From positions 1,860,001 through 1,924,000 of the forward strand of contig NZ_CP060723.1 in NCBI RefSeq assembly GCF_014395225.1: DNA of 64,000 nt. Direction: 5' to 3'. The notes beneath the pieces are model-generated. The model was not told where the DNA came from. It saw only the letters and a program-made list of their open reading frames with translations, and did not search any database. Source of the stretch: Pedobacter roseus. Its GTDB lineage: Bacteria > Bacteroidota > Bacteroidia > Sphingobacteriales > Sphingobacteriaceae. The first letter of the stretch is position 1. Each line of letters begins with the position of its first letter. The translations under genes were made by a program, and so were the position numbers. Below are positions 1-35,973 of this stretch, one piece after another.

Positions 1-2287
1 CTTATCTGAAGCTTATAAATGGTTATGGTCCTACAGAAAATACAACTTTTTCGTTGACCTATGAGATATCCGGTAATGTTTCATCGATTCCTATCGGGCG
101 TCCTATTTCAAACAGCCGTGTTTATATACTTGACGTTTCGGGCCATCTTTGCGGTATCGGCATTCCGGGTGAGATCTGTGTTTCCGGTGCGGGGCTAGCG
201 CGGGGCTACCTTAACCGTCCCGAGCTGACTGCGGAGCGTTTTGTTCCGAACCCTTATCTGGCTGGGGAGCTGATGTACCTTACGGGTGACATCGGGCGCT
301 GGCTGCCTGACGGTAACATTGAGTTCCTTGGGCGTGCTGATGACCAGGTGAAGGTCCGTGGTTACCGGATCGAGCTTGGTGAGATCGAGAGTGTTCTCCA
401 GGGTCATGCGGATGTTGATTCGTGTGTTGTGGTTGCACGTGAGAACAGTTCGGGGGATAAGGACCTTATCGCTTATGTGGTGGGTTCGGAAGGCCTTGAC
501 GTATCGGTCCTGCGGGGCTACCTTGGGGCATCCTTCCCCAGTACATGGTTCCCGGCCATTATGTGGGGCTTGCCTCTCTTCCGCTGACGCCAAACGGTAA
601 GGTGGACCGCCGTTCCCTTCCGGATCCAGAGGGGCTTGAGCTTGGCAGCGGGAGGGAGTATGTTGCTCCGCGCACAGAGACGGAGCGTGCACTGGTTTCT
701 GTTTATCAGGACGTGCTCAAAAAAGCAGGTATTGGCATACGCGAAGACTTTTTTGCTTTAGGAGGGGATTCGATAAAATCCATCCAGGTGGTTTCCCGAT
801 TGAAACAACAGGGTTATTCGCTGACGATCCAGGATGTTTTGCTCTATCCTGTCATAGAGGAACTATCTCTGTATGTTCGGTCTGTCAGCCGTTCTGTAGA
901 CCAGGGGGTTTTCCAGGGGGTTATTCCCTTGAGCCCTATCCAGCATTATTTCCTTGGAGGCAGCTCTGGGGATAAGCACCATTATAACCAGTCTGTTCTT
1001 TTGAGCAGCAGTGAGCCTATTTCGCCCGAAGGTCTCCGCGCATGCCTTGGGCACCTTGTTCTTCACCATGACAGCCTCCGTATGGTATACTTTCAGGATG
1101 AGCATGGCTGGGTTCAGGAGAATCTTGGCAGTGAGCAGGGCTTTTCATTGGATATACTGCCATATGAGCCCGGGGCATCCTTTGTTTCAGCCTGTGAGTC
1201 TGTTCAGTCTGGTATAGATCTTGGTACGGGACCTCTACTGAAAGCCTGTCTTTTTCAGGGCGACGGTTCCGATCGCCTTCTTCTGGTGGTACATCACCTG
1301 GTTGTGGACGGTGTTTCCTGGCGTATTCTCTTTGAGGATCTTTCGGTTCTTTATAGCCAGTACAGCTCGGGCAATGCGTTGGTCCTTCCAGCTAAAACTG
1401 ATTCCTTTGGTTATTGGCAATCGGTCCAGATGGATTATTCTCTCAGTCCGCGCTTGTCCGGGGAGTCTGCCTACTGGTCTTCGTTAGAGGATGCCGGTGC
1501 GGATCTGCTTCCAATGGACAAGCCCGGGGGCAGCAATCTTGTTTCCGATGGGGCTTCCTGCTCCTTTACCCTTGGTTTGGAGGAGACTTCGCGCCTGCTT
1601 ACGGAGTGTTATAGTTCATACCGTACCGATATAAATGATATTTTGCTCACTGCGCTGAGCCTTGGGCTGACAGATGTTTTTGGACTTGACCGTGTTATGG
1701 TTAAGCTTGAGGGTCATGGCCGTGAAGATATAGGGGGGGATACGGATATTAGCCGCACGGTGGGCTGGTTTACCACGATGTACCCTGTTGTTTTCGATAT
1801 GGGTTACCGTACAGATACAGTCCGTCAGCTTATCGAGGTGAAGGAGAGCCTTCACCGGGTTCCCAATAAGGGCATCGGTTACGGCATCCTCCGTTATCTG
1901 TGCGGATGTGACTACCGTCTATCTCCCGGGATAAGCTTCAATTACCTTGGGGACTTTGGCTCTGGGCTGGACAATGGGCAGGGCAGTTCTCTTTTCCGTT
2001 TTTCCGGGGATTACCATGGCAGCCCTGTTTCCGGTCACCGGGAACGGGATTCTGTACTTTCTGTTTCTGGTCTTATGGTGGATGGCCGTATGAACCTTTC
2101 GATTAATTACAGTAGGGAGCAGTTCCATGAGGAAACAATTCAGGGGCTCCTCTCTGCCTACCGGTCACGTCTGAACAGCCTTATCGGGATCTTATCATCT
2201 GAAACCGGCCATCATCCGACCCCTGTGGACCTTACCTTTAAGGGGCTGAGTGTAGAACAATTAAACCTTTTAAACAAAAAATTATGA
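1..2287 (+). CDS. Non-ribosomal peptide synthetase, 3' part (A-PCP-E), interrupted by an apparent 1-base deletion
   Basis: The frame is open to the left window edge (from base 3). It begins inside an adenylation domain at the A5 motif (NGYGPTEN) and runs through A7-A10, with the A10 lysine in NGKVDRR. A carrier domain follows (FALGGDSIKS, about 745-780), then an epimerization domain (about 890-2210) with the E-type active site HHLVVDGVSWRIL. The visible part of the A-domain code (G, T, F after the A5 motif) fits Val-type codes such as DAFWIGGTFK, but most of the code is off-window. The frame breaks at the G4 run 525-528; the same repeat has G5 at 9465 and 12648, where the frame stays open. 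One added base gives a 761-residue fragment. The gene ends in a short tail and overlaps the next synthetase by ATGA. There is no thioesterase domain, so the chain passes to the next protein. As an E-terminated protein it should hand over a D-residue. Confidence 0.93.
82..2244 (+). repeat. Long NRPS repeat, copy 1 (A C-subdomain, PCP, E)
   Basis: By eye this is near-identical to 4550-6711. It covers the A-domain C-terminal subdomain, the carrier domain and the whole epimerization domain. Differences seen are one base in the G-run near 1733-1739 (G7 here, G6 in copy 2) and isolated substitutions. It ends where the E-C linkers diverge. Confidence 0.9.
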
Positions 2288-5200
2288 TAGAAGACGTATA
2301 TCCTTTGAGCCCCCTTCAACAGGGGCTATATTATCACTGGGCCTCTTCGCCTACTTCTGAGGTTTATTTTGAACAGATGAGCTATCGGGTTGAAGGGCTT
2401 CTTGATGTGGATAAGATCGAATCTAGCTATCGTTCCCTTGTATCCCGTCATGCTGTTCTTCGTACTTTCTTTACGCAGGATTATGGAGACCGCCTGCTTC
2501 AGGTTGTGGCCAGGTCGTTTTCGGGGGGATTCAGTTATATTGATGCTTCCGGGGATCCCCATTTCTCTATTTCGGATTTCAAGGAGGGGGACCGTTCCCT
2601 TGGCTTTGACCTGCATCAGGGCTCACAGATGCGCCTGAGTGTTGTTTTTCTTGGGGATGGCCGGTATGAGTTTGTCTGGAGTTTTCACCATATATTGATG
2701 GACGGGTGGTGCGTGGGCATACTGGTCAAGGAATTTTTTGAATTCTACCGAAATCTCAGTACTGGTCAGTCATTGCAGTTAAATCGTATAGAACCTTATT
2801 CTAGCTATATAAAATGGCTTGAAGAAATCGATAGAGCCAAAAGCTTTACCTATTGGGGAAAGTACTTATCAGAATTCAAATCACTTGCTTCTTTACCGAA
2901 GTTTTCAACAGGATTGAAGCCGGGTAGATTCCGAGAGCAGGTTCTTACAATTGATGGGGACATCCGTTCCAGCCTCCGCTCGCTGTGCATCGAGCTGGGG
3001 GTAACCGAGAATACTTTTGTTCAGGCAGCCTGGGGTCTTCTGCTGGGCCGCTATAACAATACTGATGATGTTGTTTTCGGTTCGGTCGTATCGGGCCGTC
3101 CGGCAGATATAGAGGGGATTGAGGATATGGTTGGGCTATTTATAAACACCATCCCGGTAAGGGTCCGTGCCCGTGGCGGGATGTGTTTCCGGGATCTGCT
3201 GAAAGAGGTTCAGCAGGAGGCGATTTCCGGGATGGAACACCATTATGTTCAACTGGCAGAAATCCAGTCTTTGTCTGGGGTTGGGGGAGCTCTTTTCGAC
3301 CATATACTGGTATTCGAAAACTACCCCGTACAGGAAATTATTTCCCAGGGACAAGAGACATCTAATGAAAAGATTTCGCTCCTTTCTTTCGAAATATTTG
3401 AACAGAGTAACTATAGCCTTACCGTTGTTATAATCCCCGGGGACAATCTGGTTGTCAAGCTGGCATATAACGACAGTATCTATGAAGACGCTATGATTGA
3501 ACGTCTCAAAGTACATCTGCTAACCTTAATAACTTCAGTCTTGTCCAGTCCGGATGCTCCCGTTGGGGATATTGATTACCTTGGTACTGTGGAGCGTTCG
3601 CTGTTATTGGGGGATTTCAATTCGACAGGTTCAGACTATCCGCGGGACCGCAGTATAGTTGATCTTTTCGAGGAGCAGGTTCTGCTCTGCCCCGAGCATA
3701 CAGCAGTAGTTTTTGGTTCAGCGCGTCTGAGCTACAGCGAACTGAACATGCTTTCCAACCGTCTTGCCCATTATCTCCGGGAGGTCCATGGCATCGGTGC
3801 GGGCGATCTTGTGGGGATCCTTCAGGACCGCAGTGATTTGCTGATCGTTTCTATTCTGGGTGTTCTTAAATCTGGAGGGGCCTATGTTCCCATCGACCCT
3901 GACTATCCCCGGGATCGGATTGATTACATGCTAAAGGACAGTGGATGCCGTGCTGTTCTGGATTCGGATGAGATCAGCCGTTTTGTTTCCTGTTCTGAAG
4001 ATTACCGTGCAGAGAACCCTGTAGGAATTTCTGGGGCTGATGACCTTGCGTATGTGATCTACACTTCGGGTTCGACGGGTATGGCCAAAGGCTGTTCAGT
4101 CACGATGTCGAGTCTTTTCAATTATGTTCATTGGAGTAACGGTTATTATTTCGAGGGCCTTGAGTCGGTGAATTTCGGTTTTTATACCTCTCTGTCCTTT
4201 GACCTTACCATAACGAGTATTTTTTGTTCTTTAACGCAGGGTGGGATATTAACTGTGTATGGTTCGTATGAAGAACTTACGGATATTTTTTCTTCTGTTT
4301 TTAGTGATGATAGTTTTGTAAACTGTATTAAGCTGACGCCTTCGCATATCCATGTATTAGCGCATCTCAGTCTCAGTTCATCAACTGTGTCCCGCGTAAT
4401 TATTGGAGGTGAGCAGGTATTATCCTTTCATATAAAAACACTGAAAGAACTTGGCGGTTCTTTGATGCGTATCTATAATGAATACGGTCCTACGGAGTCA
4501 ACCGTGGGTGTCATCGTGAATGAAGTGGAAAAGGTTGATCCAGATGTTTCATCGATTCCTATCGGGCGTCCTATTTCAAACAGCCGTGTTTATATACTTG
4601 ACGTTTCGGGCCATCTTTGCGGTATCGGCATTCCGGGTGAGATCTGTGTTTCCGGTGCGGGGCTAGCGCGGGGCTACCTTAACCGTCCCGAGCTGACTGC
4701 GGAGCGTTTTGTTCCGAACCCTTATCTGGCTGGGGAGCTGATGTACCTTACGGGTGACATCGGGCGCTGGCTGCCTGACGGTAACATTGAGTTCCTTGGG
4801 CGTGCTGATGACCAGGTGAAGGTCCGTGGTTACCGGATCGAGCTTGGTGAGATCGAGAGTGTTCTCCAGGGTCATGCGGATGTTGATTCGTGTGTTGTGG
4901 TTGCACGTGAGAACAGTTCGGGGGATAAGGACCTTATCGCTTATGTGGTGGGTTCGGAAGGCCTTGACGTATCGGTCCTGCGGGGCTACCTTGGGGCATC
5001 CTTCCCCAGTACATGGTTCCCGGCCATTATGTGGGTCTTGCCTCTCTTCCGCTGACGCCAAACGGTAAGGTGGACCGCCGTTCCCTTCCGGATCCAGAGG
5101 GGCTTGAGCTTGGCAGCGGGAGGGAGTATGTTGCTCCGCGCACAGAGACGGAGCGTGCACTGGTTTCTGTTTATCAGGACGTGCTCAAAAAAGCAGGTAT

Positions 5201-8200
5201 TGGCATACGCGAAGACTTTTTTGCTTTAGGAGGGGATTCGATAAAATCCATCCAGGTGGTTTCCCGATTGAAACAACAGGGTTATTCGCTGACGATCCAG
5301 GATGTTTTGCTCTATCCTGTCATAGAGGAACTATCTCTGTATGTTCGGTCTGTCAGCCGTTCTGTAGACCAGGGGGTTTTCCAGGGGGTTATTCCCTTGA
5401 GCCCTATCCAGCATTATTTCCTTGGAGGCAGCTCTGGGGATAAGCACCATTATAACCAGTCTGTTCTTTTGAGCAGCAGTGAGCCTATTTCGCCCGAAGG
5501 TCTCCGCGCATGCCTTGGGCACCTTGTTCTTCACCATGACAGCCTCCGTATGGTATACTTTCAGGATGAGCATGGCTGGGTTCAGGAGAATCTTGGCAGT
5601 GAGCAGGGCTTTTCATTGGATATACTGCCATATGAGCCCGGGGCATCCTTTGTTTCAGCCTGTGAGTCTGTTCAGTCTGGTATAGATCTTGGTACGGGAC
5701 CTCTACTGAAAGCCTGTCTTTTTCAGGGCGACGGTTCCGATCGCCTTCTTCTGGTGGTACATCACCTGGTTGTGGACGGTGTTTCCTGGCGTATTCTCTT
5801 TGAGGATCTTTCGGTTCTTTATAGCCAGTACAGCTCGGGCAATGCGTTGGTCCTTCCAGCTAAAACTGATTCCTTTGGTTATTGGCAATCGGTCCAGATG
5901 GATTATTCTCTCAGTCCGCGCTTGTCCGGGGAGTCTGCCTACTGGTCTTCGTTAGAGGATGCCGGTGCGGATCTGCTTCCAATGGACAAGCCCGGGGGCA
6001 GCAATCTTGTTTCCGATGGGGCTTCCTGCTCCTTTACCCTTGGTTTGGAGGAGACTTCGCGCCTGCTTACGGAGTGTTATAGTTCATACCGTACCGATAT
6101 AAATGATATTTTGCTCACTGCGCTGAGCCTTGGGCTGACAGATGTTTTTGGACTTGACCGTGTTATGGTTAAGCTTGAGGGTCATGGCCGTGAAGATATA
6201 GGGGGGATACGGATATTAGCCGCACGGTGGGCTGGTTTACCACGATGTACCCTGTTGTTTTCGATATGGGTTACCGTACAGATACAGTCCGTCAGCTTAT
6301 CGAGGTGAAGGAGAGCCTTCACCGGGTTCCCAATAAGGGCATCGGTTACGGCATCCTCCGTTATCTGTGCGGATGTGACTACCGTCTATCTCCCGGGATA
6401 AGCTTCAATTACCTTGGGGACTTTGGCTCTGGGCTGGACAATGGGCAGGGCAGTTCTCTTTTCCGTTTTTCCGGGGATTACCATGGCAGCCCTGTTTCCG
6501 GTCACCGGGAACGGGATTCTGTACTTTCTGTTTCTGGTCTTATGGTGGATGGCCGTATGAACCTTTCGATTAATTACAGTAGGGAGCAGTTCCATGAGGA
6601 AACAATTCAGGGGCTCCTCTCTGCCTACCGGTCACGTCTGAACAGCCTTATCGGGATCTTATCATCTGAAACCGGCCATCATCCGACCCCTGTGGACCTT
6701 ACCTTTAAGGGGCTTGAGATAGAGGATGTACTGAAGCTGGACAGTTCTGTCGGTCTGGAGGATGTGTATCCTTTGAGCCCCCTTCAACAGGGGCTATATT
6801 ATCACTGGGCCTCTTCGCCTACTTCTGAGGTTTATTTTGAACAGATGAGCTATCGGGTTGAAGGGCTTCTTGATGTGGATAAGATCGAATCTAGCTATCG
6901 TTCCCTTGTATCCCGTCATGCTGTTCTTCGTACTTTCTTTACGCAGGATTATGGAGACCGCCTGCTTCAGGTTGTGGCCAGGTCGTTTTCGGGGGATTCA
7001 GTTATATTGATGCTTCCGGGGATCCCCATTTCTCTATTTCGGATTTCAAGGAGGGGGACCGTTCCCTTGGCTTTGACCTGCATCAGGGCTCACAGATGCG
7101 CCTGAGTGTTGTTTTTCTTGGGGATGGCCGGTATGAGTTTGTCTGGAGCCACCACCACATATTGATGGACGGCTGGTGCGTGGGCATACTGATCAAGGAA
7201 TTTTTTGGATTTTATTATAATTCACTGGAAGGTATGCCTACCGAACTGGGGCGTCCCCACCTTTACTCAAGATATATAGAATGGCTAGGTGCTGTCGATG
7301 AGAAAAAGAGCCTGGGATACTGGACGGACTATCTGAATGGATATAATACCTTGTCGGTATTGCCCAAATCAAAGAAAGGTAATGGTGGTGCCAGAAAAGA
7401 GCAGGTTCTTACAATTGATGGGGACATCCGTTCCAGCCTCCGCTCGCTGTGCATCGAGCTGGGGGTAACCGAGAATACTTTTGTTCAGGCAGCCTGGGGT
7501 CTTCTGCTGGGCCGCTATAACAATACTGATGATGTTGTTTTCGGTTCGGTCGTATCGGGCCGTCCGGCAGATATAGAGGGGATTGAGGATATGGTTGGGC
7601 TATTTAGCAACACGATCCCGGTAAGGGTCCGTGCCCGTGGCGGGATGTGCTTCCGGGATCTGCTGAAAGAGGTTCAGCAGGAGGCGATTTCCGGGATGGA
7701 ACACCATTATGTTCAACTGGCAGAAATCCAGTCTTTGTCTGGGGTTGGGGGAGCTCTTTTCGACCATATACTGGTATTCGAAAACTACCCCGTACAGGAA
7801 ATTATTCCCGATAATAAATCAAAACAACCAAAACTTAAACTTCTGTCTTCAAAAACGATGGAGACAAGTAATTATGACTTTGCTCTCATAATCTTACCTA
7901 ATACAAATTTTAATATACAATTTCATTATGACCAGAATGTGTTTTCAGACGAGTCAGTTAGACAGTTATGCAGACATCTAAAAGCGATCATTCATAAATT
8001 AATCCTAAACTCTCATGCCGACATCAGTTGTTTTGATTTTGTAGACCTAGAAGAGCAACAAAAAATACTTTATTCATTCAATCATACGCCAAATTTATTT
8101 TCAGAAAAGAGGACCGTTATCGATATGTTTGAAGAACAAGTTAAAAATAGTCCCGATGGGTTATGCCTTGATTTTGAGGGCAATTCGTTAACATATAATG

Positions 8201-11200
8201 AGGTAAATATCAGAGCGAATCAGCTTGCTAATTATCTCCATATTAATTTCAATATTAGAAGAGGAGATCTTATAGGTATTCTCTTAGACCGGAGTGACTG
8301 GATGATAGTTTCAATTCTTGGAGTTCTCAAATCTGGTGCGGCTTATGTTCCCATAGATGTCGACTATCCTAATGATCGAATTAATTATATAATAAAGGAC
8401 AGTGGATGTAAGTTAATTTTAGATAATTCTCAAATTCTCAAATTTATTGAATGTCGGAAAGAACTAGATTGTCTGAATAATAAAAAGCGTTCGGGTTTGA
8501 ATGATTTGGCTTATGTTATTTATACCTCGGGTTCTACGGGTAATCCCAAAGGAGTGATGATTGAACACAGTAGTCTTTCCAATAGGATTATTTACTTTCA
8601 GGAGTATTATGAAATTACTACCCTTGATGTAATGTTCTTTTATCGATCCTTTAGTTTTGACGGATCTATTGAAGAATATTTACTGCCATTGATGATTGGT
8701 GCAAAATGCTACCTTGCTTCTTCAGATTTTAAGTTGAATTTATTGGATAATTTAGTTAATGCTATTGAGCTAAATAGTGTTACAAAAATAAATATGCCAC
8801 CTGCTTTACTGGGGGAAATAATTAACAGTGATCAGCCAGAAATAATTTCTAAACTTAAGTCGCTTAAGCACCTGGTTTCCGGTGGGGATAAAATTTCGTT
8901 AAAGACCGTTTCGGCAGTTTTATCTAAACTTTCATGTAAGCTATATAATAGTTACGGACCAACAGAAAATACTATTGATTCAACTAATTATTTAATAGAA
9001 AAGGTTGATCCAGATGTTTCATCGATTCCTATCGGGCGTCCTATTTCAAACAGCCGTGTTTATATACTTGACGTTTCGGGCCATCTTTGCGGTATCGGCA
9101 TTCCGGGTGAGATCTGTGTTTCCGGTGCGGGGCTAGCGCGGGGCTACCTTAACCGTCCCGAGCTGACTGCGGAGCGTTTTGTTCCGAACCCTTATCTGGC
9201 TGGGGAGCTGATGTACCTTACGGGTGACATCGGGCGCTGGCTGCCTGACGGTAACATTGAGTTCCTTGGGCGTGCTGATGACCAGGTGAAGGTCCGTGGT
9301 TACCGGATCGAGCTTGGGGAGATCGAGAGTGTTCTCCAGGGTCATGCGGATGTTGATTCGTGTGTTGTGGTTGCACGTGAGAACAGTTCGGGGGATAAGG
9401 ACCTTATCGCTTATGTGGTGGGTTCGGAAGGTCTTGACGTATCGGTCCTGCGGGGCTACCTTGGGGGCATCCTTCCCCAGTACATGGTTCCCGGCCATTA
9501 TGTGGGTCTTGCCTCTCTTCCGCTGACGCCAAACGGTAAGGTGGACCGCCGTTCCCTTCCGGATCCAGATGGGCTTGAGCTTGGCAGCGGGAGGGAGTAT
9601 GTTGCTCCGCGCACAGAGACGGAGCGTGCACTGGTTTCAATCTGGCAGGATGTACTTGGAAAGGAGGGGATTGGGGTAAAAGACAACTTCTTCGAGCTTG
9701 GGGGGCATAGTTTGAAAGTTATCCTTCTTAGCGGACAGATACACAAAAAAATGGACATACGGCTTGCCCTGAAAGATTTTTTTGAACATCCGCTGCTTGA
9801 AGAGCAGTCGATGCTAATTGAGCAGGCCCAAAAGGATTCTTTTTCTTTCATTTCCGCTGTTCCCGGATCTGGTTCTTATGCTTTGTCATCGTCCCAGCGC
9901 CGATTATGGATATTGAGCCAGTTTCCTGAGGCGAATGTGGCATACAATATGCCCGGTGTTTATGTTTTCAGCGGTTCGGTGAACGCGGATGGTCTTTTTC
10001 ACAGTTTTTCACAGCTGCAGGAGCGGCATGAGATCCTGCGTACGGTTTTCCGGGAGGATGGTGAGGGTGTTGTCCGTCAGGTTGTTCTTACTTCGTCTGA
10101 GAGCGGTTTCTTTCTTGAGCAGCGGGACCTTCAGGGAAAAGATGCTTCTTTTGTCGATTCGGTTGTTGAGTCCGATTTTGTTCGTCCCTTTGATCTTTCG
10201 TCAGGCCCTCTTTTCCGGGCTGGTCTTTACCGTGTATCGCAGGACCGCTGGGTCTTCACCTATGTGATGCACCATATCATAAGCGATGGCTGGAGCATGG
10301 GTATACTTATCCGTGAGCTTCTTTCTCTCTACAACAGTTATGTTCTTGGTGAAGAGAACGCTTTGTCTCCCTTGCGTATCCAGTACCGGGATTACGCCGC
10401 CTGGCAGCAGGCCGAGTTGTCGGGTTCCCGTTATGAGGAACACCGTTCCTACTGGCTGGACCATCTGTCGGGTAAGCTTCCAGTTCTTGAGCTCTTAGGC
10501 GGCCGAGCCCGCCCATCGGTAAAGACATACAATGGTGGTGTTGTACACCGTATGCTCGGCTCAGATCTGAGCAGTGGCCTGAGATCTTTGAGCCAGGAAC
10601 GGGGCGCTACGCTTTTCATGGGCCTACTGGCGTGCGTTAATGTTCTGCTATACCGCTACAGCGGCCAGAGCGATCTGATCATAGGTACGCCTATGGCCGG
10701 TCGTGAGCATTCTGACCTTGAGGACCAGATCGGTTTCTATGTGAATACGGTAGCACTACGGAGCCGTTTTTCGGGTTCGGATAGTTTTCTTGAACTGGTT
10801 GACCATGTCCGTGGGGTAAGCCTTGGGGCCTATGAGCACCAGGCCTATCCGTTCGATGAGCTGCTGGAAGAACTTCACCTGCAGCGTGACATGAGCAGGA
10901 GCCCCCTGTTCAATATACTGGTGGATTTTCATGACCTAAGAGAGCGGGGTTCAATAAAAGAATTGAGTTACAATAGTCTAAATGTCGAGCCATATAAAAA
11001 TATAGAGCGCGGTATCAGTAAGTATGATATAACTTTTTATTTTAGCTTATCTGTTCAAGGGCTTGGTTTATCCATTGAATACAACAGTGACATTTATGAT
11101 GAGCCGGCGATGTTGCGTATGTCTGGCCATTTTGAGCATCTCCTTTCCGGCCTGTTGTCCAGTCCGGATGCTCCCGTTGGGGATATTGATTACCTTGGTA

Positions 11201-13053
11201 CTGTGGAGCGTTCGCTGTTATTGGGGGATTTCAATTCGACAGGTTCAGACTATCCGCGGGACCGCAGTATAGTTGATCTTTTCGAGGAGCAGGTTCTGCT
11301 CTGCCCCGAGCATACAGCAGTAGTTTTTGGTTCAGTGCGTCTGAGCTACAGCGAACTGAACATGCTTTCCAACCGTCTTGCCCATTATCTCCGGGAGGTC
11401 CATGGCATCGGTGCGGGCGATCTTGTGGGGATCCTTCAGGACCGCAGTGATTTGCTGATCGTTTCTATTCTGGGTGTTCTTAAATCTGGAGGGGCCTATG
11501 TTCCCATCGACCCTGACTATCCCCGGGATCGGATTGATTACATGCTAAGGGACAGTGGATGCGGAATCCTTCTCACGCAGACCGAATATGTCTTTGGTCT
11601 GGAGTCTTTTCCGGGCGAACTTTTCGCTGTCGATATCCAGCTGTCAGGTCTGGATACCTCGGCAGAGAACCCTGTAGGAGTTTCTGGGGCTGATGACCTT
11701 GCGTATGTGATCTACACTTCGGGTTCGACGGGTATGGCCAAAGGCTGTTCAGTCACGATGTCGAGTCTTTTCAATTATGTTCATTGGAGTAACGGTTATT
11801 ATTTCGAGGGCCTTGAGTCGGTGAATTTCGGTTTTTATACCTCTCTGTCCTTTGACCTTACCATAACGAGTATTTTTTGTTCTTTAACGCAGGGTGGGAT
11901 ATTAACTGTGTATGGTTCGTATGAAGAACTTACGGATATTTTTTCTTCTGTTTTTAGTGATGATAGTTTTGTTAACTGTATTAAGCTGACGCCTTCGCAT
12001 ATCCATGTATTAGCGCATCTCAGTCTCAGTTCATCAACTGTGTCCCGCGTAATTATTGGCGGTGAGCAGGTATTATCCTTTCATATAAAAACACTGAAAG
12101 AACTTGGCGGTTCTTTGATGCGTATCTATAATGAATACGGTCCTACGGAGTCAACCGTGGGTGTCATCGTGAATGAAGTGGAAAAGGTTGATCCAGATGT
12201 TTCATCGATTCCTATCGGGCGTCCTATTTCAAACAGCCGTGTTTATATACTTGACGTTTCGGGCCATCTTTGCGGTATCGGCATTCCGGGTGAGATCTGT
12301 GTTTCCGGTGCGGGGCTAGCGCGGGGCTACCTTAACCGTCCCGAGCTGACTGCGGAGCGTTTTGTTCCGAACCCTTATCTGGCTGGGGAGCTGATGTACC
12401 TTACGGGTGACATCGGGCGCTGGCTGCCTGACGGTAACATTGAGTTCCTTGGGCGTGCTGATGACCAGGTGAAGGTCCGTGGTTACCGGATCGAGCTTGG
12501 TGAGATCGAGAGTGTTCTCCAGGGTCATGCGGATGTTGATTCGTGTGTTGTGGTTGCACGTGAGAACAGTTCGGGGGATAAGGACCTTATCGCTTATGTG
12601 GTGGGTTCGGAAGGCCTTGACGTATCGGTCCTGCGGGGCTACCTTGGGGGCATCCTTCCCCAGTACATGGTTCCCGGCCATTATGTGGGGCTTGCCTCTC
12701 TTCCGCTGACGCCAAACGGTAAGGTGGACCGCCGTTCCCTTCCGGATCCAGAGGGGCTTGAGCTTGGCAGCGGGAGGGAGTATGTTGCTCCGCGCACAGA
12801 GACGGAGCGTGCACTGGTTTCAATCTGGCAGGATGTACTTGGAAAGGAGGGGATTGGGGTAAAAGACAACTTCTTCGAGCTTGGGGGGGATTCTTTATCT
12901 ATGATTAAATTTATTGTTATTTTAAAAAATAAGATGAGCTATAAGCTGGAAGTAAAAGAATTACTTCTAAATTCAACAATATTCCAAATGTCTATACTAA
13001 TGGAAAACAGAAATGAGAATCAAAAGCAAAACAATACAGAACTATATAAATAA
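2284..13053 (+). CDS. Three-module NRPS, C-A-PCP-E / C-A-PCP / C-A-PCP (three apparent 1-base deletions)
   Basis: Open pieces 2284-5055, 5013-6308, 6227-7105 and 7096-13053 join into one 3590-residue protein if one G is restored in each of the runs 4993-4996, 6201-6206 and 6991-6995. Sister copies in this window have the longer run each time. Module 1: C (2290-3570, HHILMDGW), A (3620-5080), PCP (FALGGDSIKS near 5215), E (5390-6690). Module 2: C (6760-8040, HHILMDGW), A (8100-9580), PCP (FELGGHSLKV). Module 3: C (9860-11150, HHIISDGWS), A (11190-12760), PCP (FELGGDSLSM). I read the A codes as DLTKIGEVGK for modules 1 and 3 (close to Asn, DLTKLGEVGK) and DGENVGSIDK for module 2 (unassigned; E239 hints at a basic residue). 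The first two C domains follow E domains, so DCL type is expected; the third should be LCL. There is no C-terminal TE, so release or continuation lies elsewhere. Confidence 0.93.
2298..2680 (+). repeat. C-domain repeat, N-terminal half (copy 1; copy 2 at about 6767-7147)
   Basis: The first part of the C domain is shared almost base for base between modules 1 and 2. It runs from the YPLSPLQQG motif to just past the HHILMDGW motif and then diverges into an AT-richer module-specific stretch. Copy 2 has G5 at 6991-6995 where copy 1 has G6 at 2523-2528. Confidence 0.85.
2939..3342 (+). repeat. C-domain repeat, C-terminal half (copy 1; copy 2 at about 7402-7805)
   Basis: A second shared block of the module 1 and 2 C domains, separated from the first block by about 250 bases of unrelated, AT-richer sequence. 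It ends sharply where the module 2 sequence becomes AT-rich near 7805. Confidence 0.85.
4550..6711 (+). repeat. Long NRPS repeat, copy 2 (A C-subdomain, PCP, E)
   Basis: Second copy of 82-2244, about 4.47 kb downstream. Both copies carry the short G4 run that breaks the A domain (525-528 and 4993-4996). The A-domain part alone (to about 5165) recurs twice more, at about 9008-9640 and 12190-12822. Confidence 0.9.
9001..9640 (+). repeat. A-domain C-subdomain repeat, module 2 copy
   Basis: Third of four near-identical A-domain C-subdomain copies (about 82, 4550, 9008, 12190). The left junction is abrupt. AT-rich module-specific A-core sequence ends at about 9000, and the repeat begins with the bases encoding KVDPDVSSIPIG, as in modules 1 and 3. 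Confidence 0.88.
11158..12766 (+). repeat. Asn-type A-domain repeat, module 3 copy (module 1 copy about 3545-5120)
   Basis: The whole A domain of module 3 is near-identical to that of module 1, apart from a short divergent patch (about 11565-11670 versus 3947-4018) between A2 and A3. The specificity-determining core is identical, so both modules should select the same amino acid. Confidence 0.88.
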
Positions 13054-13111
13054 AATAAAAAACTGATATAATACCAGAGTCAACGGGAAATTGAATACCG
13101 AATATAAAATT

Positions 13112-14569
13112 ATGGATCAGAAAAATATAGTAATTTATCACAGACAACCTTATATAGAGAAAGCTTTAAATGGTAAAGTAGTTTTTTACAAAGAAGGAAA
13201 TAAACCAAACGGAATAATTCCCCTATTGATGAGTTTTTTTTCCTCCATCAAAGGTGGGTTATGGATTGCGGGAAGTGAATTTGCGGAAATGTCAGGCAAA
13301 GAACAATATGAGAAAGTGAAATTTGAGGACTACAATGGAGAATGTAGAATAAAAAAAGTATTAATAACAAAAGAGGAAAATGAAAAATTTTATCACGAAA
13401 CTTCAAAAAATGGATTTTGGTCGATTTTACATTCATCACAAGATAAATTTAACTCAAAAAATATCGATTGGGAAAATTTTGTCCTTATAAACAAACGCTT
13501 CGCAGATTCTGCGTTGATAGAAGTGGGCGACGAAAGTACAATTTGGATTCATGATTATAACTTATGGTTGGTCCCCCTTTATATAAGACAAAAAAATCCA
13601 GCTGTTAAAATAATTTTTTTCTTACACACTCCTTTTCCATCTGCCGATATTTTTAATATTTTACCCTGGAGAGATGAAATTCTTCTGAGTTTGCTTTCCT
13701 GCAATAAAATAACATTTGCAATTCCAAGGTACGTGGAGAATTTCATTAGCACGCTTAAGTCTAATTTTAAAATTAAAATTAAAATGAGAACTAAGGTCCC
13801 TAATAGATTTTTGAATAAAGGTGCATTGATAGAGCATGAAATGACTAAAAAGATTAGTTTTAATGGTAATATTATAGAATTAGATGCCTATCCTCCTGGT
13901 ACGAGCCAAAAGAACATAAATCGGATGCTAAACCTTAAAGCCAGTAAAAAAAGGATAGAGGAATTACGTCAAGAACAAAAAGGACGTGTAAGTCTATTAG
14001 CAGCTTCAAGATTAGATTATATAAAAGGGATTGATACACTTTTGGAGGCCTACTACAGATTGTTGGTGCGTAATTTTGTAATACATAATAAAATCACCTT
14101 AACTTTAATAGCAGTGTCTCCAGCCAGTGGCATAAAAGCGTTTAATGAGCTGGAAAGTAAAGTTTTTATGCTTGTAAATAAAATTAATAGCCGCTTTGGT
14201 GGTAACGACTGGACTCCGGTAATCTATTTGACTGACTCCTTTAATTTTCAGGAGATGCTATGTCGATTTTCGGTAACCGATATTATGTGTGTTACTTCAT
14301 TAAGAGACGGTACTAATCTGGTATGTAAAGAATTTATTGCTGTAAAAAAAGGGAAATCGGGAACACTTATTTTATCTGAGTTTGTCGGTGCATCAGTAGA
14401 ACTGAAAGGTGCGATTATTACAAATCCATATTCTGATAGCTGCATAGACCAAGCTTTTAATGTCGCTTTATCGAGTTCAATTCCAGAAATCAAAGAAAGA
14501 GCTGAAACCATGTATAATTCTATTAAGAAATCAGATGTCAGTTTCTGGTCAAAACAAATAATTAAATAG
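13112..14569 (+). CDS. GT20 family glycosyltransferase (trehalose-6-phosphate / glucosylglycerol-phosphate synthase-like)
   Basis: About 485 residues, the usual length for OtsA-type enzymes. Family motifs are in order: HDYNLWLVP (about residue 142), FFLHTPFPSADIFNILPWR (about 165), SRLDYIKGID (about 300), LRDGTNLVCKEF (about 400) and the C-terminal LSEFVGASVEL. Known GT20 members move a glucosyl unit from a nucleotide sugar to a phosphorylated acceptor, or form a pseudo-disaccharide bond. I chose the ATG at 13112; the frame also has a TTG at 13091. It sits 58 bases after the NRPS stop and leads a run of closely packed AT-rich genes. In this setting it may decorate the peptide or make a sugar building block rather than trehalose. 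The acceptor cannot be told from sequence. Confidence 0.85.
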   Translation: MDQKNIVIYHRQPYIEKALNGKVVFYKEGNKPNGIIPLLMSFFSSIKGGLWIAGSEFAEMSGKEQYEKVKFEDYNGECRIKKVLITKEENEKFYHETSKNGFWSILHSSQDKFNSKNIDWENFVLINKRFADSALIEVGDESTIWIHDYNLWLVPLYIRQKNPAVKIIFFLHTPFPSADIFNILPWRDEILLSLLSCNKITFAIPRYVENFISTLKSNFKIKIKMRTKVPNRFLNKGALIEHEMTKKISFNGNIIELDAYPPGTSQKNINRMLNLKASKKRIEELRQEQKGRVSLLAASRLDYIKGIDTLLEAYYRLLVRNFVIHNKITLTLIAVSPASGIKAFNELESKVFMLVNKINSRFGGNDWTPVIYLTDSFNFQEMLCRFSVTDIMCVTSLRDGTNLVCKEFIAVKKGKSGTLILSEFVGASVELKGAIITNPYSDSCIDQAFNVALSSSIPEIKERAETMYNSIKKSDVSFWSKQIIK

Positions 14570-14597
14570 TAAATCGTAATATATTTTAAGAATTCCC

Positions 14598-15476
14598 ATG
14601 AAGAACCCAATATTAAGTGTAATTATACCAACATATAACAGAAAAGGATTGCTGGATCACACATTGATGAGTATTACTAATCAAAAAATTGACCTCGAAA
14701 CAATAGAAGTTATTATTGCCGATGATGGTTCAACGGACAATACAGAAGAATTGGTAGAAAAATATAGCGGTATTCTTAACATCTCATATTATTACCAGGA
14801 AGATGAAGGATATAGAGTAGCATCAGCAAGAAATTTGGGTATTACAAATGCAAATGGGGAGATTTTATTTTTTGTCGATTCAGGGATCTTACTAAGTAAA
14901 GATTGTATTTCTCAACATATATCCTCTCACAAAGGTAGTTTGAATAGTGTTGTAATAGGAACTGTTCTAGGAGTCGAGGAAGAGTATGATAATAACAAAA
15001 CATTGTTAAAACAAATTGATCTTAGCGCTATTGAGAATACAATAGCTAAAATTCAATCTGAAAATATATATCTTGATATAAGAGAAAAAGTATTTAAATC
15101 TTGTCTGGATAACTTGATGAGCTTAAAGGCTCCCTGGGCATTGTGCTGGACTGGTAACCTGTCGCTCAGGCGGAGCATGTTAATTGAGGTAGGGGAATTT
15201 GACATTGCTTTTGATAAAAACTGGGGAGTTGAAGATATTGATCTGGGGTATAGATTGTTTTTAAAGGGCGCTTTTTTTAAATTAAATAGACTTGCCCTGT
15301 CCCTGCATTACCCTCACTATAGTGATACAAGAGGCAAACTTGAACAGGAAAAAATAAATAAAAGATATTTTGATAATAAACATCAAATTTTAGCTTCAAG
15401 AACGTTTTTATCATGTACAGCAATTTGCTTAAATGACAAATTAGATGTACTGGAAAGTATAATTGATGAAATTTAA
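14598..15476 (+). CDS. GT2 family glycosyltransferase
   Basis: 292 residues. The GT-A fold signature is at the N terminus: LSVIIPTYNRKGLL, then VIIADDGSTDNT and a DSG in the DXD position near residue 95. The C-terminal WGVEDIDLGYRL is the galactosyltransferase-like (Glyco_transf_7C) motif that holds the acceptor-side acidic residues. There are no membrane segments, so it should be cytosolic. It starts 29 bases after the GT20 gene and ends 10 bases before the methyltransferase gene. It probably adds a sugar to the peptide or to a lipid-linked intermediate; donor and acceptor are unknown. Confidence 0.88.
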   Translation: MKNPILSVIIPTYNRKGLLDHTLMSITNQKIDLETIEVIIADDGSTDNTEELVEKYSGILNISYYYQEDEGYRVASARNLGITNANGEILFFVDSGILLSKDCISQHISSHKGSLNSVVIGTVLGVEEEYDNNKTLLKQIDLSAIENTIAKIQSENIYLDIREKVFKSCLDNLMSLKAPWALCWTGNLSLRRSMLIEVGEFDIAFDKNWGVEDIDLGYRLFLKGAFFKLNRLALSLHYPHYSDTRGKLEQEKINKRYFDNKHQILASRTFLSCTAICLNDKLDVLESIIDEI

Positions 15477-15485
15477 AAATGGATA

Positions 15486-16082
15486 ATGACTCGATTTGGA
15501 TGGGTTTTTCGGAAAATACTGTGGTATTTAAATAATAATAATCTCAAATCACAACGGGCGTGGAACGAGCAGTATTTAAATGGGGATTGGGATTGTTTGG
15601 CTTCAGAACTTGAAGAATGTCGTTTTGCAGCTGTAAGGAATTCAATTGATAAACATTGTAATCAGAAATCCAAAGTTTTAGATGTTGGATGTGGAGCAGG
15701 ATTATTGCTGAAGAATGCCAAACATAGCATATTTGATCAATATATTGGGATTGATATTTCGAATGTAGCGATAGAAAGAGCACGCACTAACAAGAAATCA
15801 AATATTAAATACATATGTGCTGATATGGAAAATTATTATTCAGCTACCAAGTTTGATATGATTATTTTCAATGAATCATTATATTATTCTAAAAATCCTC
15901 ACAAACTTATAAACCGTTATGTTGAGTTTTTGAATAAAGGCGGATATCTTATTTTCTCCATTTTTGAGGCTAAAAATCATTTAAACTTAATAAGGGGATT
16001 GCAAAAGGACTTTCCTGCCATTGAAACTACAAGAAGCAATAATAAGCGGGGAAGCTGGTATTGTCATGTGCATAAAATATAA
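15486..16082 (+). CDS. Class I SAM-dependent methyltransferase
   Basis: 198 residues with the Rossmann-type methyltransferase core. Motif I is VLDVGCGAGLLL (about residue 61), the acidic loop is GIDISNVAIERA, motif II is the ADMENY region, and post-motif FDMIIFNESLYY is followed by NKGGYLIFSIF. The fold class is clear; the acceptor (sugar hydroxyl, amine or peptide) is not. It sits 9 bases after the GT2 gene and overlaps the next gene by 17 bases, so it is translated with the tailoring genes. The C terminus lacks an obvious extra domain. Confidence 0.85.
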   Translation: MTRFGWVFRKILWYLNNNNLKSQRAWNEQYLNGDWDCLASELEECRFAAVRNSIDKHCNQKSKVLDVGCGAGLLLKNAKHSIFDQYIGIDISNVAIERARTNKKSNIKYICADMENYYSATKFDMIIFNESLYYSKNPHKLINRYVEFLNKGGYLIFSIFEAKNHLNLIRGLQKDFPAIETTRSNNKRGSWYCHVHKI

Positions 16083-17448
16083 GAGCTTAAAATTTAGAGA
16101 CAAAATGGATGTTATGATATTAGATACAACGCCTAAGCAGATTGAAGATTGGCACTATAATTATAGTTTGAAAAAAAAGCAAAAGCCGCGTATTATGAAA
16201 ATAAGGCATAGATTTCCCAACTGTGATGTAGAAAATGTTAGAATGGCGTTTAAAATGTTAGTTCAGAAACATGAAAGCTTACGGACTTGTTTCCCTCTAA
16301 TTGATGGAAAAATCAAACAGAAAATCAACGAATATAGTGCTATATATGAACTAAGAGTGTACAACAAAAAAGAAATTAATAATATTTCAGATTTCATTTA
16401 TTCTTTAGAAAATTCTCTCAAAAATATCCAGAATGGATCCCTTCTCCATGGGATTTTGATAGATCAAGATGGAGAAGGCTATGAATTTTTTTTAATCATT
16501 CATCATATAGTTTCCGACATGTGGTCAATTGAGATTATCAAAAAAGATTTATTAGCTTTCTATAATCACCTCACCCAAAATGCAATTCTTGAAATAGATG
16601 AAGAACAATTACAACTACGCCATTATACTGCATATTTTAAAGAACACAGGATTTCCATCCATGAGGAAAGTTTGCAACATTGGCTCATGGATTTAAGTAA
16701 GGACAGCTGGAAAGTAGATTATAATGTCATCTACCAAAAACTTTCTGCGAGTTTTCCAAATCTAATTCCGGAACATTATATGAGGGGAGATCGAACATTT
16801 CTTTCTGGATTTGAACTCGAGAAAAATCCTGATGGGGAGTCTTATAGTGTTATTTGTAAGGGCGAGATATATTCCAGGCTCCAATCTTATAAAAAACAAA
16901 TAAATACTGGTGTTTTCAGTATCCTACTTACATCACTCAACATCCTCTATCATCGATTGACTGGTCGGAACGACCTCGTGGTACTTTCTCATTTCTCAAA
17001 TCGGCATGAGGTTAGAACCCAAAGCATCATAGGGAATTTAATAGGAAAGCTAATTCATCATACGAAACTAAATGAGAAAGACTCGTTTAAGGAATCCATC
17101 ATTACTGCAAGTCAAAACTTTGTCGATTCTATTGATAAGATAGTTTTTAACTCGGAGACACTAAAAAAACTAAATTTAGTAACTTCTAGTTTTGTGTTTT
17201 TAAATTTTATCAACAAAGAAAGAGAGGTTGGGCCAATTTATCTTGCAGGTAAAAATACATTAATGAAGTCGAGAGTTGAATCACCATTGGTATGCGAGGT
17301 AATTGAATTTTCAAACTGTTACGTAATAAATTGGTCTTACCATTTATCCTACTATAATTTTGAAATGATAAAAGTAATCAGCTCGCTTCATCTTTCTCTG
17401 CTTTCGAAAATGGTTATGTTTTCTGATAGAAATTTATTGACCGCATAA
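16066..17448 (+). CDS. Free-standing NRPS condensation-domain protein
   Basis: About 460 residues, one C domain in length, with no A or PCP domain. The catalytic signature HHIVSDMWS is present: both histidines and the Asp are kept, while the usual DG is DM. Late C-domain motifs follow, such as the RNDLVVLSHFSNR region in the place of the floor-loop motif. I placed the start at the ATG at 16066, which overlaps the methyltransferase gene by 17 bases; a later ATG at 16105 is also possible. Stand-alone C proteins in NRPS clusters join an amine or alcohol to a carrier-bound chain, release the chain, or recruit an oxygenase. The synthetase here lacks a TE domain, so a role in release or in attaching a side group is plausible but unproven. 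Confidence 0.82.
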   Translation: MCIKYKSLKFRDKMDVMILDTTPKQIEDWHYNYSLKKKQKPRIMKIRHRFPNCDVENVRMAFKMLVQKHESLRTCFPLIDGKIKQKINEYSAIYELRVYNKKEINNISDFIYSLENSLKNIQNGSLLHGILIDQDGEGYEFFLIIHHIVSDMWSIEIIKKDLLAFYNHLTQNAILEIDEEQLQLRHYTAYFKEHRISIHEESLQHWLMDLSKDSWKVDYNVIYQKLSASFPNLIPEHYMRGDRTFLSGFELEKNPDGESYSVICKGEIYSRLQSYKKQINTGVFSILLTSLNILYHRLTGRNDLVVLSHFSNRHEVRTQSIIGNLIGKLIHHTKLNEKDSFKESIITASQNFVDSIDKIVFNSETLKKLNLVTSSFVFLNFINKEREVGPIYLAGKNTLMKSRVESPLVCEVIEFSNCYVINWSYHLSYYNFEMIKVISSLHLSLLSKMVMFSDRNLLTA

Positions 17449-17494
17449 CCACAAATATCCAAATTATAGTGAATATAACTTTTTTAAAATAAGA

Positions 17495-18220
17495 ATGATA
17501 GATTCAAACATTTCATTTATAAAGAAGAAAGCTAAGCTTTTTCTCCTTCATTATGCTGGTGGAAATGTTTACTCATACCAGTTTTTAATCCCTCTATTAA
17601 ATGATTTTGATGTAATTCCACTGGAGCTCCCGGGAAGGGGGAAAAGGGCAAAAGAACCTCTGTTAAAACTATTCGAAGAGGTTTCTGTTGACCTTTATAA
17701 TTTAATTCTCAATCAGGTTCAGGAAGAGGAATTTTTAATTTACGGTCATAGTATGGGTGCATATTTGGGTTTGAAGATCACAGATATGTTAAATGGAATT
17801 AATAAAAAGCCGGTATGTTTAATTGTCAGCGGTAATCCTGGGCCCGGTATCAAGGATGATTTACAAAGACATCTTTTAGATGACTGTGAGTTCATTCGCG
17901 AACTAAAAAAAATAGGAGGGATACCTTCGGAAATATTCGCAAATAATGAGGTTCTGAATTATTTTTTACCTATTTTAAGAGCTGACTTCGAAGTCGCAGA
18001 AAATAATAACCTTGATTCAACAAGAGCTTCAGATGTTCCAATTTTTGCAATGATGGGCGATCAAGAAGAAAAATGTGAACAAATATCAAATTGGAATAGA
18101 TTTACTAGCGGCTCCTTTGATTTTAAAATCATGAAAGGTGGACATTTCTTTATTCGAGAAAATCCTGAACTTCTTGCTGGAATAATTAGAAAATGTTATG
18201 ATGAAAATATTATATCATGA
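17495..18220 (+). CDS. Type II (editing) thioesterase
   Basis: 241 residues, alpha/beta hydrolase, GrsT/SrfAD-like. The N terminus reads LFLLHYAGGN, the typical start of this family. The nucleophile is Ser86 in GHSMGA, and a late GGHFF supplies the histidine; an Asp around the MMGDQEE motif is the likely acid. Such enzymes clear mis-primed or stalled carrier proteins by hydrolysing aberrant thioesters. Because no TE domain is fused to the visible synthetases, it might also take part in release. Its end overlaps the PPTase gene by 23 bases. Confidence 0.92.
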   Translation: MIDSNISFIKKKAKLFLLHYAGGNVYSYQFLIPLLNDFDVIPLELPGRGKRAKEPLLKLFEEVSVDLYNLILNQVQEEEFLIYGHSMGAYLGLKITDMLNGINKKPVCLIVSGNPGPGIKDDLQRHLLDDCEFIRELKKIGGIPSEIFANNEVLNYFLPILRADFEVAENNNLDSTRASDVPIFAMMGDQEEKCEQISNWNRFTSGSFDFKIMKGGHFFIRENPELLAGIIRKCYDENIIS

Positions 18221-18842
18221 ATTAGATAATTCTTTGGATATTGATTTTGAGTCCTATTTGCAATTGTTGCCGACACAGATGCAAGATGAAATTAGAAGGT
18301 ATAGAAATTTAAATGATAGGAAATCTCGACTGATATCTAGATTGATGTTAAAGTCTCATCTTTATTCTTCTAATCAATCAAGCCTGATTTATTCATGGAA
18401 CCGGGATATCCATAATAAGCCATTTATCTCGAATGGAATTAATTTCAATATATCCCATTCAGGAGATATAGTACTTTTTGCGACATCAAATCTGCCAATT
18501 GGAATAGATGTGGAATTCAAATCCGATCTAAATTTTGATGAATTGATAGATTTTTTTCATGAGCAAGAAATATCCCAGATTTCTAATTCAGCCTCTATTA
18601 AGTCTGCTTTCTTTGAAATTTGGGTAAAAAAAGAAGCTTTTTTGAAGGCTATTGGTATTGGTTTAACAATAGACATTAGAAAATATAACTGTTCTAATAA
18701 ATCCATATTTTATTTGAACAAAGAGTGGTTTTTTCATAGAATTGATATCTCTGAGGAGTATGAATCTTTTGTCTGTTGTTTAGAGAGTAATCCCCAAATT
18801 CATATAAGCAAATATATTGTCAATTTAAAAACACTACTGTAA
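18198..18842 (+). CDS. Sfp-type 4'-phosphopantetheinyl transferase
   Basis: 214 residues. It carries the family signatures FNISHSGD (about residue 83), GIDVEF with the Mg-binding acidic pair D104/E106, and FEIWVKKEAFLKAIGIGL with E146. It transfers phosphopantetheine from CoA to the conserved serine of the PCP domains, turning apo-synthetases into working holo forms. The start overlaps the end of the thioesterase gene, and two adjacent ATGs (18198, 18201) are possible. Its position inside the cluster supports dedication to this assembly line. Confidence 0.92.
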   Translation: MMKILYHELDNSLDIDFESYLQLLPTQMQDEIRRYRNLNDRKSRLISRLMLKSHLYSSNQSSLIYSWNRDIHNKPFISNGINFNISHSGDIVLFATSNLPIGIDVEFKSDLNFDELIDFFHEQEISQISNSASIKSAFFEIWVKKEAFLKAIGIGLTIDIRKYNCSNKSIFYLNKEWFFHRIDISEEYESFVCCLESNPQIHISKYIVNLKTLL

Positions 18843-18868
18843 TACTAACTCCACCATAACAGAAGCAT

Positions 18869-20479: not shown

Positions 20480-20576
20480 AAATATTTCAACATTTTATTG
20501 AGAACCATTCGCTGTGACTATTACATAAAGAGTATAATATTTTACATTGAACATTAAAATCCTTAAGTAGTGGGTT

Positions 20577-34694: not shown

Positions 34695-34755
34695 AATATA
34701 CAAACAAAAAATTATACAAACATTTTTGTTTGTATAATTTTTTGTTTGTATAATT
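34695..34755. promoter_or_regulatory. Large AT-rich inverted repeat before the two-ATPase operon
   Basis: Arms of about 28 bases (34695-34722 and 34727-34755), each made of two ATTATACAAACA-like units, are separated by four T. One mismatch region is near the outer end. Promoter-like TATAAT sequences lie inside the right arm, 20-45 bases before the ATG at 34776, so it may be an operator or part of the promoter. It could also form a cruciform. Confidence 0.7.
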
Positions 34756-34775
34756 GTTTTCTAACATTGAGTCAA

Positions 34776-35969
34776 ATGGCAAAACTGCATAATAAAGTCG
34801 GACCGCCTGTTGAAGGAGCGGATTTTTTTGGAAGGGAAAGTGAGGTGAATGACAGCTGGTCGGATCTGGAAGACGGAAACCATCTCCTGATTTCCGCGCC
34901 ACGGAGGATTGGTAAAAGTTCATTGGTGAAGCGTCTCCTTTCTGAGGCCGATAGCCAGGGCTGGAAATCCACTTATGTCGACGTACAGGGGTTAGGAAGC
35001 GAAGTTGAATTTTATAAGGTGTTTACCGAACATCTCAAGAAGGATGGAACAGGCTGGTTCGTGAAAAACAGGCAAAGGGTGCTTGAAGGGATCGGCAATG
35101 TGCTTTCGAAGTTTGAAGTTTCTGTAGCGGCAAACGATATAAATATTAAGCTGTCTTATAACAGCAAAGAAGTTAAGGACCTGCGTGATGGCATAGAGGC
35201 ATTGCTGGAGGGGTGCGGAGATATGCTTATAGCAATTGATGAGCTGCCCTTTTTTCTGGCCAGATTGGAAAAGGAATCCGATGGACCGTTACGCGTTTCG
35301 GATTTTTTACACTGGCTACGTTCTTTCAGGCAAAAAAAGGGCAGTGGGATAAGATGGGTATTCTGTGGCTCCATTGGTCTGGATACTTTTACAGAACGGC
35401 TCAAACTTTCAGGCGCTTTCAATGATGTCCTGAACTTTCCCATAAGTGCGTTTGATGATGCGACCGCGATCAGGTTTTTGATCCAGTTAGGAAGCGATAA
35501 TGGTCTGGCAATTTCCCAAGAGGTGGCAGAACAGATAATAGAGGTAATCGGTTGGCCGCTGCCTTATTTCCTTCAAGCCCATTTTAAACAGTTAAAGCGC
35601 ATCAAATCACAGGATATGAGAAAACCGGTGACATCTGATGAAATAAAACAGGCCTATGCAAATATTATACGTGATACCTCTTCGCTTAAAACATGGGAAG
35701 AAAGGCTGGACGATCAATTGCCATCGTCTGATGCCGGCCATTGCAAGGTAATACTCAAGAATTTATGTAAATCAAAAAAAGGGCTTTCAAGAAAGAAACT
35801 CTTTGATCTGCTATATAATAGTTTTTCGGACGTCCAGAAATGCGAGGATGCATTGGCCTCATATATCGCAATGCTGGACCGTGATGGCTACATTATAGAA
35901 GTTAACGGTAATTATAGCTTCAGATCCCCGCTACTGAGGGATTTTTGGTACAAAATGAAAGTGAGATAG
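34776..35969 (+). CDS. AAA/STAND-type ATPase with C-terminal winged helix
   Basis: About 397 residues from the ATG at 34776; an earlier TTG start is less likely because it falls inside the inverted repeat. The N terminus reads GADFFGRESEV, then Walker A SAPRRIGKSSL (about 40-50) and Walker B MLIAIDELPFF (about 150). The C-terminal part (about 320-397, GLSRKKLFDLLYNSF and DRDGYIIEVNG) looks like a winged helix. The design resembles archaeal-type/Orc1-like ATPases and STAND regulators. No effector domain is fused. The gene ends 4 bases before the next ATPase gene, so the two are almost certainly made together. Confidence 0.8.
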   Translation: MAKLHNKVGPPVEGADFFGRESEVNDSWSDLEDGNHLLISAPRRIGKSSLVKRLLSEADSQGWKSTYVDVQGLGSEVEFYKVFTEHLKKDGTGWFVKNRQRVLEGIGNVLSKFEVSVAANDINIKLSYNSKEVKDLRDGIEALLEGCGDMLIAIDELPFFLARLEKESDGPLRVSDFLHWLRSFRQKKGSGIRWVFCGSIGLDTFTERLKLSGAFNDVLNFPISAFDDATAIRFLIQLGSDNGLAISQEVAEQIIEVIGWPLPYFLQAHFKQLKRIKSQDMRKPVTSDEIKQAYANIIRDTSSLKTWEERLDDQLPSSDAGHCKVILKNLCKSKKGLSRKKLFDLLYNSFSDVQKCEDALASYIAMLDRDGYIIEVNGNYSFRSPLLRDFWYKMKVR

Positions 35970-35973
35970 AGAA

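Follow-up and report, generated by a model that had tools for sequence, protein, structure and literature searches.

In the genome of Pedobacter roseus, a single contig of 6.33 Mb, the last part of a nonribosomal peptide synthetase (NRPS) gene cluster contains an AT-rich, single-copy tract embedded in GC-rich repeats. The module to which the tract belongs, the twenty-first of the cluster, is almost certainly a recombination mosaic. On the strength of sequence comparisons we narrowly favour the explanation that the surroundings of module 21 were overwritten from scaffold repeats, the tract being a surviving resident core. The analysis concerns a 64,000-nucleotide stretch, bases 1860001-1924000 (hereafter the window), and positions are those of the window except where genome positions are indicated.

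The AT-rich tract and its borders

The NRPS locus covers some 92 kb (genome ~1781000 to 1873053) and ends in the window, of which it occupies positions 1-13053. It encodes 22 AMP-binding (adenylation, A) domains, numbered here A01-A22, of which two appear as a pair of separate matches; the AT-rich tract lies in module 21 (A21). The open frame that holds it carries two stretches each of Condensation, AMP-binding, AMP-binding C-terminal and carrier domains, as expected for NRPS modules of condensation (C), adenylation and carrier (T) domains. The features on which the argument turns are as follows.

7096-13053, forward strand: open frame of the last two modules, with the end of C21, A21, T21, C22, A22 and T22 (from the open reading frame and domain matches)
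7807-8997, forward strand: unique AT-rich tract, GC 0.325, spanning the end of the C domain, the C-A linker and the A domain as far as motif A5 (borders from homology and composition)
4528-7809, forward strand: 5' repeat block, with the A20 C-subdomain, T20, a condensation-like domain read as an epimerization domain (E20) and most of C21; 99.88% identical to genome 1847953-1851238
8998-12821, forward strand: 3' repeat block, with the A21 C-subdomain, T21, C22 and A22; 99.84% identical to genome 1852426-1856249

The original prediction, made from the sequence alone, was of an AT-rich tract at about 7805-9000 with abrupt changes of composition and different codon use, and this is confirmed. GC content drops from 0.520 (7501-7800) to 0.30-0.35 (7801 to 9000) and rises again to 0.553 (9001-9300). 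Third-position GC (GC3) follows the same course, from 0.532 in the 5' flank, through 0.276, 0.267 and 0.299 in three parts of the tract, to 0.552 in the 3' flank; none of the 14 codons in the last 42 bases of the tract ends in G or C. Composition does not pass smoothly across the borders: a two-border fit of 6701-10000 has its optimum at 7800 and 9027, where the log-likelihood rises by 56.6; over 40 block shuffles, for which a coarser grid was used, the rise never exceeded 16.4. By homology, the tract spans 7807-8997, following GAAATTATT, and shared sequence resumes at 8998 (GAAAAGG). Thus GC, GC3, codon usage and homology all shift at the same two places, and the reading frame is open through both.

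The claim that only the substrate-choosing part differs is too narrow, because the C-domain tail and C-A linker lie in the tract as well. At the nine code positions, placed by hand from GrsA motifs, the tract reads D G E N V G S I D; with the final Lys, which is assumed, the code is DGENVGSIDK, for which no match appeared in the literature searched.

The sister block

Both repeat blocks are colinear with one source block, at offsets of 16575 and 16572 (alignments of 3286 bp with four gap columns for the 5' block, where the E20 reading comes from position, and of 3824 gap-free bp for the 3' block). Apart from the tract, everything from the A20 C-subdomain through A22 is a copy of the A16 C-subdomain through A18. 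Relative to module 17, there is no substitution in 6732-7799 (one gap, at 6990) and there are three in 9001-10077, and A17 and A21 have C-subdomains that are 100% identical and cores that are 30% identical. Because both flanks match a single block that holds A17, the sister of module 21 is module 17 and not an Asn module. The predicted joins to high-GC repeats were therefore found on both sides, but with a different nearest paralogue from the one proposed.

At the place of the tract, the sister block carries the code DGTKVGHVGK. The code DLTKIGEVGK, which we take to be an Asn code, belongs to A18, A20 and A22, all three of which have the same core; code alignment and core comparison locate two of them in the window.

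4081-4482, forward strand: A20 core, Asn-type code DLTKIGEVGK
11734-12135, forward strand: A22 core, Asn-type code DLTKIGEVGK

In the available text of PMC12283262, DLTKIGEVGK is treated among Glu/Gln and Asp/Asn-type domains. Given the code in the sister block, the suggested change from an Asn-like code to DGENVGSIDK is unsupported. The same applies to a substrate change of any kind, as scaffold overwriting around old cores fits the cluster at least as well.

Composition of the tract, the cluster and the host

AT-richness had been taken as a sign that the piece was introduced. In codon usage the tract lies at a distance of 0.075 from the unique modules A12 and A14 and 0.076 from the downstream genes, compared with 0.129 from ten other genes of the window and 0.177 from its own flanks, which are themselves at 0.111 from those ten genes. 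Since its codon usage is so close to that of A12, A14 and the downstream tailoring genes, the tract is normal for this cluster, and a foreign origin deduced from its low GC was rejected.

Across the locus, GC is 0.494 in repeated and 0.373 in unique DNA; five 20 kb stretches elsewhere in the genome have values of 0.38-0.42. Low GC is normal for the unique DNA of this cluster, and the compositional outliers are the GC-rich, skewed repeats. The unique parts of the cluster are AT-rich with respect to host genes in the window, as is the cluster as a whole (GC3 ~0.29 versus 0.48). The entire NRPS cluster may be an acquired island, which says nothing special about the tract. Elsewhere in the locus, two 1574-base repeats (genome 1784980-1786553 and 1788100-1789673) are 100% identical and have a GC content of 0.43 in surroundings of 0.33-0.34.

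Recurrence of the mosaic and age of the cores

The alternation of like and unlike parts is found in many modules of the cluster. C-subdomains are at least 94% identical in 46 pairs of its A domains (17 domains), and in 40 of these pairs the cores are only 19-34% identical. Cores are 100% identical in five of the remaining six pairs (A02/A03, A15/A19, A18/A20, A18/A22 and A20/A22) and 60% identical in A10/A13. With the C-subdomain cut-off at 95% or more and 16 of the 22 domains covered, cores fall below 60% in 20 of 22 pairs, while the same comparison in other genomes gives 3 of 7 (G019), 0 of 22 (G095), 0 of 2 (G070) and 0 of 1 in both G077 and G121. The core/scaffold mosaic is unusual to this cluster, not typical of the genus. 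The coverage of 16 or 17 of the 22 domains arises from A domains with broken frames, which are partly missing from the comparisons; the core alignment is without A01.

Related cores are also found on different scaffolds, in the four pairs A05/A12, A07/A17, A08/A15 and A08/A19 and in a fifth, A09/A13, without a C-subdomain value. A07 and A17, which share a code, are 65% identical in N-subdomain, 61% in core and 72% in C-subdomain. For A08 and A19, of similar code, the values are 66%, 53% and 65% (the A19 C-subdomain being frame-broken), with 71% for the C-subdomains of A08 and A15; A09 and A13, again with the same code, are at 68% in N-subdomain and 60% in core. The cores seem to date back as far as the separation of the two scaffold sets, and C-subdomains are nearly identical within a set.

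Overwriting of the scaffold or import of the core

Under the overwriting that we favour, scaffold repeats (C, A C-subdomain, T and neighbours) would recombine with each other and so become alike, and gene conversion or block copying from near-identical repeats of the same cluster would have overwritten the DNA around 7807-8997. Selection at the level of the peptide would retain the core of each module, which may also be too diverged for good pairing. We infer both the direction, scaffold over core, and selection as the cause of core persistence. That cores diverged roughly in step with scaffolds across the two sets favours overwriting around resident cores. So does the pattern over the cluster as a whole, which would otherwise need many recent imports from donors that no search found. 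Further points in its favour are the colinear flanks from one source block, the cluster-like codon usage of the tract, the GRINS-like segments on either side of it and the lack of a close match in the searches described below.

Several points weigh against this explanation. The pair A05/A12 (45%, 59% and 62% in N-subdomain, core and C-subdomain) is a poorer fit to in-step divergence, A10/A13 is itself mixed (64%, 60% and 94%), and copying has at times included the core (A18/A20/A22 and A15/A19). Only paralogues can be compared, the 145 genus genomes searched having yielded no orthologous cluster to give direction, and exchange of A cores is well documented by comparison with orthologues in the available text of PMC8097286. 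For module 21 taken alone, a single 8.3 kb duplication and one import are equally simple. Finally, no core related to that of A21 occurs in the other scaffold set, and for this reason our preference for overwriting is a slight one and import is retained as a less probable, though real, possibility.

Import would mean that an 8.3 kb block was duplicated and that the C tail, linker and A core of the copy then gave way to 1.19 kb from another NRPS, with a change of the amino acid. It would account for the one colinear block on both sides of the tract, and phylogeny provides a further argument for it. In trees of 163-168 sequences, the A21 C-subdomain lies at distance 0 from A16, A17, A18 and A22, while the twelve nearest tips of the A21 N-subdomain and those of the core all come from other genomes (inner support 0.80-0.87 and 0.34-0.44, respectively). 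The two parts therefore have different nearest relatives, as had been anticipated, and the grouping of the N-subdomain with modules of other genomes speaks for import. Support around A21 in the core tree was too weak for a donor clade to be named. The best matches of the whole tract protein, at 38-39%, are to modules of its own cluster; this disagrees with the tree as to the nearest relative of the A21 core.

The results of the database searches, in contrast, count against import, as does the cluster-like codon usage of the tract. Outside the tract's own genome, the best match reported among 297 relatives is 40% identical, and no better one was found in 145 genomes of the genus or 395 members of the phylum (three overlapping sets, with the top 4-12 candidates per genome scored). 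A pattern scan of GTDB produced four loci of 31-34% identity. Plasmid protein matches were all below 60%, the ten listed reaching at most 35.5%, and plasmid DNA matches involved 43 records, with at most 7% of the tract covered among the 20 listed. An orthologous cluster, from which the direction might be read, was also not found in the 145 genus genomes, with the top few candidates per genome scored: scaffold DNA gave partial matches, 66-75% identical where at least 180 bases align (best long match 67%), and the neighbouring glycosyltransferase family 20 (GT20) gene gave nothing above 36% identity.

GC3 and repetition across the genus

The relation between GC3 and repetition was assessed in the NRPS regions of ten genomes, our own and nine others of the genus, chosen, as was a second set, as rich in NRPS matches. 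GC3 rises with the best within-genome identity, with rho of 0.53 for 167 N-subdomains, 0.65 for 163 C-subdomains, 0.63 for 198 C domains and 0.38 for 168 cores (0.47, 0.59, 0.58 and 0.42 without our own genome). With cores left out and at least two members on each side of a stratum, repeated parts are higher in GC3 in all 19 genome-by-part strata, from seven genomes, by 0.017 to 0.191. In the second set, six genomes with few repeats (four of the genus, two from other families), rho is 0.18-0.30 and four of five strata are positive, by 0.04-0.05.

Families of at least four copies show 43 single-copy changes towards AT and 25 towards GC (34 and 18 in G095; 9 and 7 in our own genome). Third-position A is lost in all eight clusters compared, by 0.03-0.13, while the change in T is 0 to -0.06; in our own cluster the A is lost to C and G alike (0.07 each). 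In view of this difference between A and T, symmetric GC-biased conversion was not accepted as the sole cause of GC-rich repeats. A wider proposal is that NRPS scaffolds of the genus might be self-homogenising recoding elements: conversion would keep their composition apart from that of unique modules, GC3 would rise with paralogue identity, and apparent core swaps would mostly be old cores in a rewritten scaffold. We offer this tentatively, since the single-copy changes in our own genome are near balance.

These data also bear on the possibility that the tract is ordinary and that a foreign, GC-rich scaffold was acquired and amplified around it, which we consider unlikely. The GC3 of 0.54 in the flanks and 0.27 in the tract would agree with such an origin, and the G095 repeats, with their excess of changes towards AT, look as if eroding from a richer start; the near balance in our own genome does not. 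No source was found in the 145 genus genomes, to which the search was confined. GC3 is raised in the repeats of seven genomes, and the between-genome identities listed do not exceed 0.7, except for four G019c parts near G065, so that one shared import does not explain it.

One-base differences in the repeats

Upstream of about 7000, one-base differences in G runs interrupt the NRPS frame. Such runs, shorter by one base than their counterparts in the sister copies and accompanied by breaks of the frame, occur at 518-537, 4986-5005, 6195-6221 and 6982-7001, and further frame breaks were seen. Over four kinds of site, shorter G/C runs (by one base) are present in 3 of 9 A C-subdomain, 1 of 4 E, 1 of 4 C and 1 of 9 A copies. 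These breaks are probably long-read sequencing errors, although they could be real. Differences of this kind are seen in long-read assemblies with unpolished repeats. A misjoining of long repeats around the tract is nevertheless very improbable, given a single-copy tract in a frame open over both borders. Even with the copies in a wrong order there would still be a mosaic, as the tract has to be flanked by a scaffold copy at either end.

GRINS-like segments

Two segments found by a repeat and skew scan bracket the tract.

6891-7490, forward strand: GRINS-like segment within the C domain that precedes the tract
8961-10070, forward strand: GRINS-like segment starting at the 3' border of the tract (scanned in 30-base steps)

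Genetic repeats of intense nucleotide skews (GRINS), as described in the available text of PMC10394414 and PMC9899208, resemble these segments in being repeats of about 1 kb within one assembly line in which G outnumbers C and T outnumbers A, and are proposed there as drivers of gene conversion. The bracketing pair are among 22 repeat segments of the cluster that pass a skew criterion of 0.15, which takes in 36% of repeated DNA and 7% of the rest. The repeats, detected by blastn and not by the published pairwise scan, are at least 500 bp long with more than 80% identity elsewhere in the same assembly line. Both skews reach at least 0.15 in 17% of repeated 300-base intervals, and at least 0.25 in 1%. 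Since they fall short of the stricter wording in the available part of PMC10394414, GC and TA skews above 25%, we call them GRINS-like and not GRINS. They differ from known GRINS also in belonging to an NRPS and in having a higher GC content than the remainder of the cluster. PMC10394414, in the text available, calls GRINS rare in polyketide synthases of Bacteroidetes. In nine other clusters of the genus with repeats, the skewed share is higher in the repeats in six and lower in three (G077a, G019b and G070b).

Comparison with known systems

Concerted evolution of assembly-line domains, in which modules are homogenised within a cluster, was reportedly described by Medema et al. in 2014. The present cluster has such homogenisation too; what distinguishes it is that like scaffold and unlike core alternate sharply within single domains. 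The survey of A-core recombination by Baunach et al. (2021; PMC8097286, in the text available) similarly has variable A cores among near-identical modules, a conserved A C-subdomain and many borders, and module 21 follows it in having a core of its own together with an A C-subdomain that its sister modules also carry. Unlike most cases in that survey, which has exceptions, module 21 has not kept its native C-A linker, the tract starting within the C-domain tail. In addition, our comparison is between paralogues, and the direction may be the reverse. The available text of a paper on Pedobacter NRPSs (PMC12181424) contains nothing on a core/scaffold mosaic.

Mosaics among sister modules can be read as proof of core swapping, and such readings guide engineering. 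A moving scaffold and a staying core explain the pattern at least as well, and reverse the inference as to which part is portable. The many pairs in which C-subdomains are 94-100% and cores 19-34% identical amount to a catalogue, drawn up by nature, of the cores that a single scaffold tolerates. Because GC3 rises with repetition, here and in other genomes of the genus, the origin of skewed assembly-line repeats can be put to the test in bacteria of lower GC.

Predicted function and neighbouring genes

With the final Lys assumed, the A21 code agrees at seven of ten positions with the Arg trend in the available text of PMC12283262, and the substrate of A21 might conceivably be cationic. Downstream, at 13091-22385, lie tailoring genes for family 20 and family 2 glycosyltransferases, a condensation-domain protein, a thioesterase, a phosphopantetheinyl transferase, a CmlA-type diiron hydroxylase and an ABC transporter. 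These genes would suit a modified peptide, perhaps glycosylated and hydroxylated.

Elsewhere in the locus, the A04 core (genome 1791620-1793710) is interrupted by ~1.08 kb which, on visual inspection, looks like a luciferase-like monooxygenase, and methyltransferase-like stretches, likewise judged by eye, seem to follow the cores of A11 (genome 1828924 onward) and A14 (genome 1839694 onward). Further along the window, at 34746-39045, an AAA-type protein is followed by an NTPase with TPR repeats.

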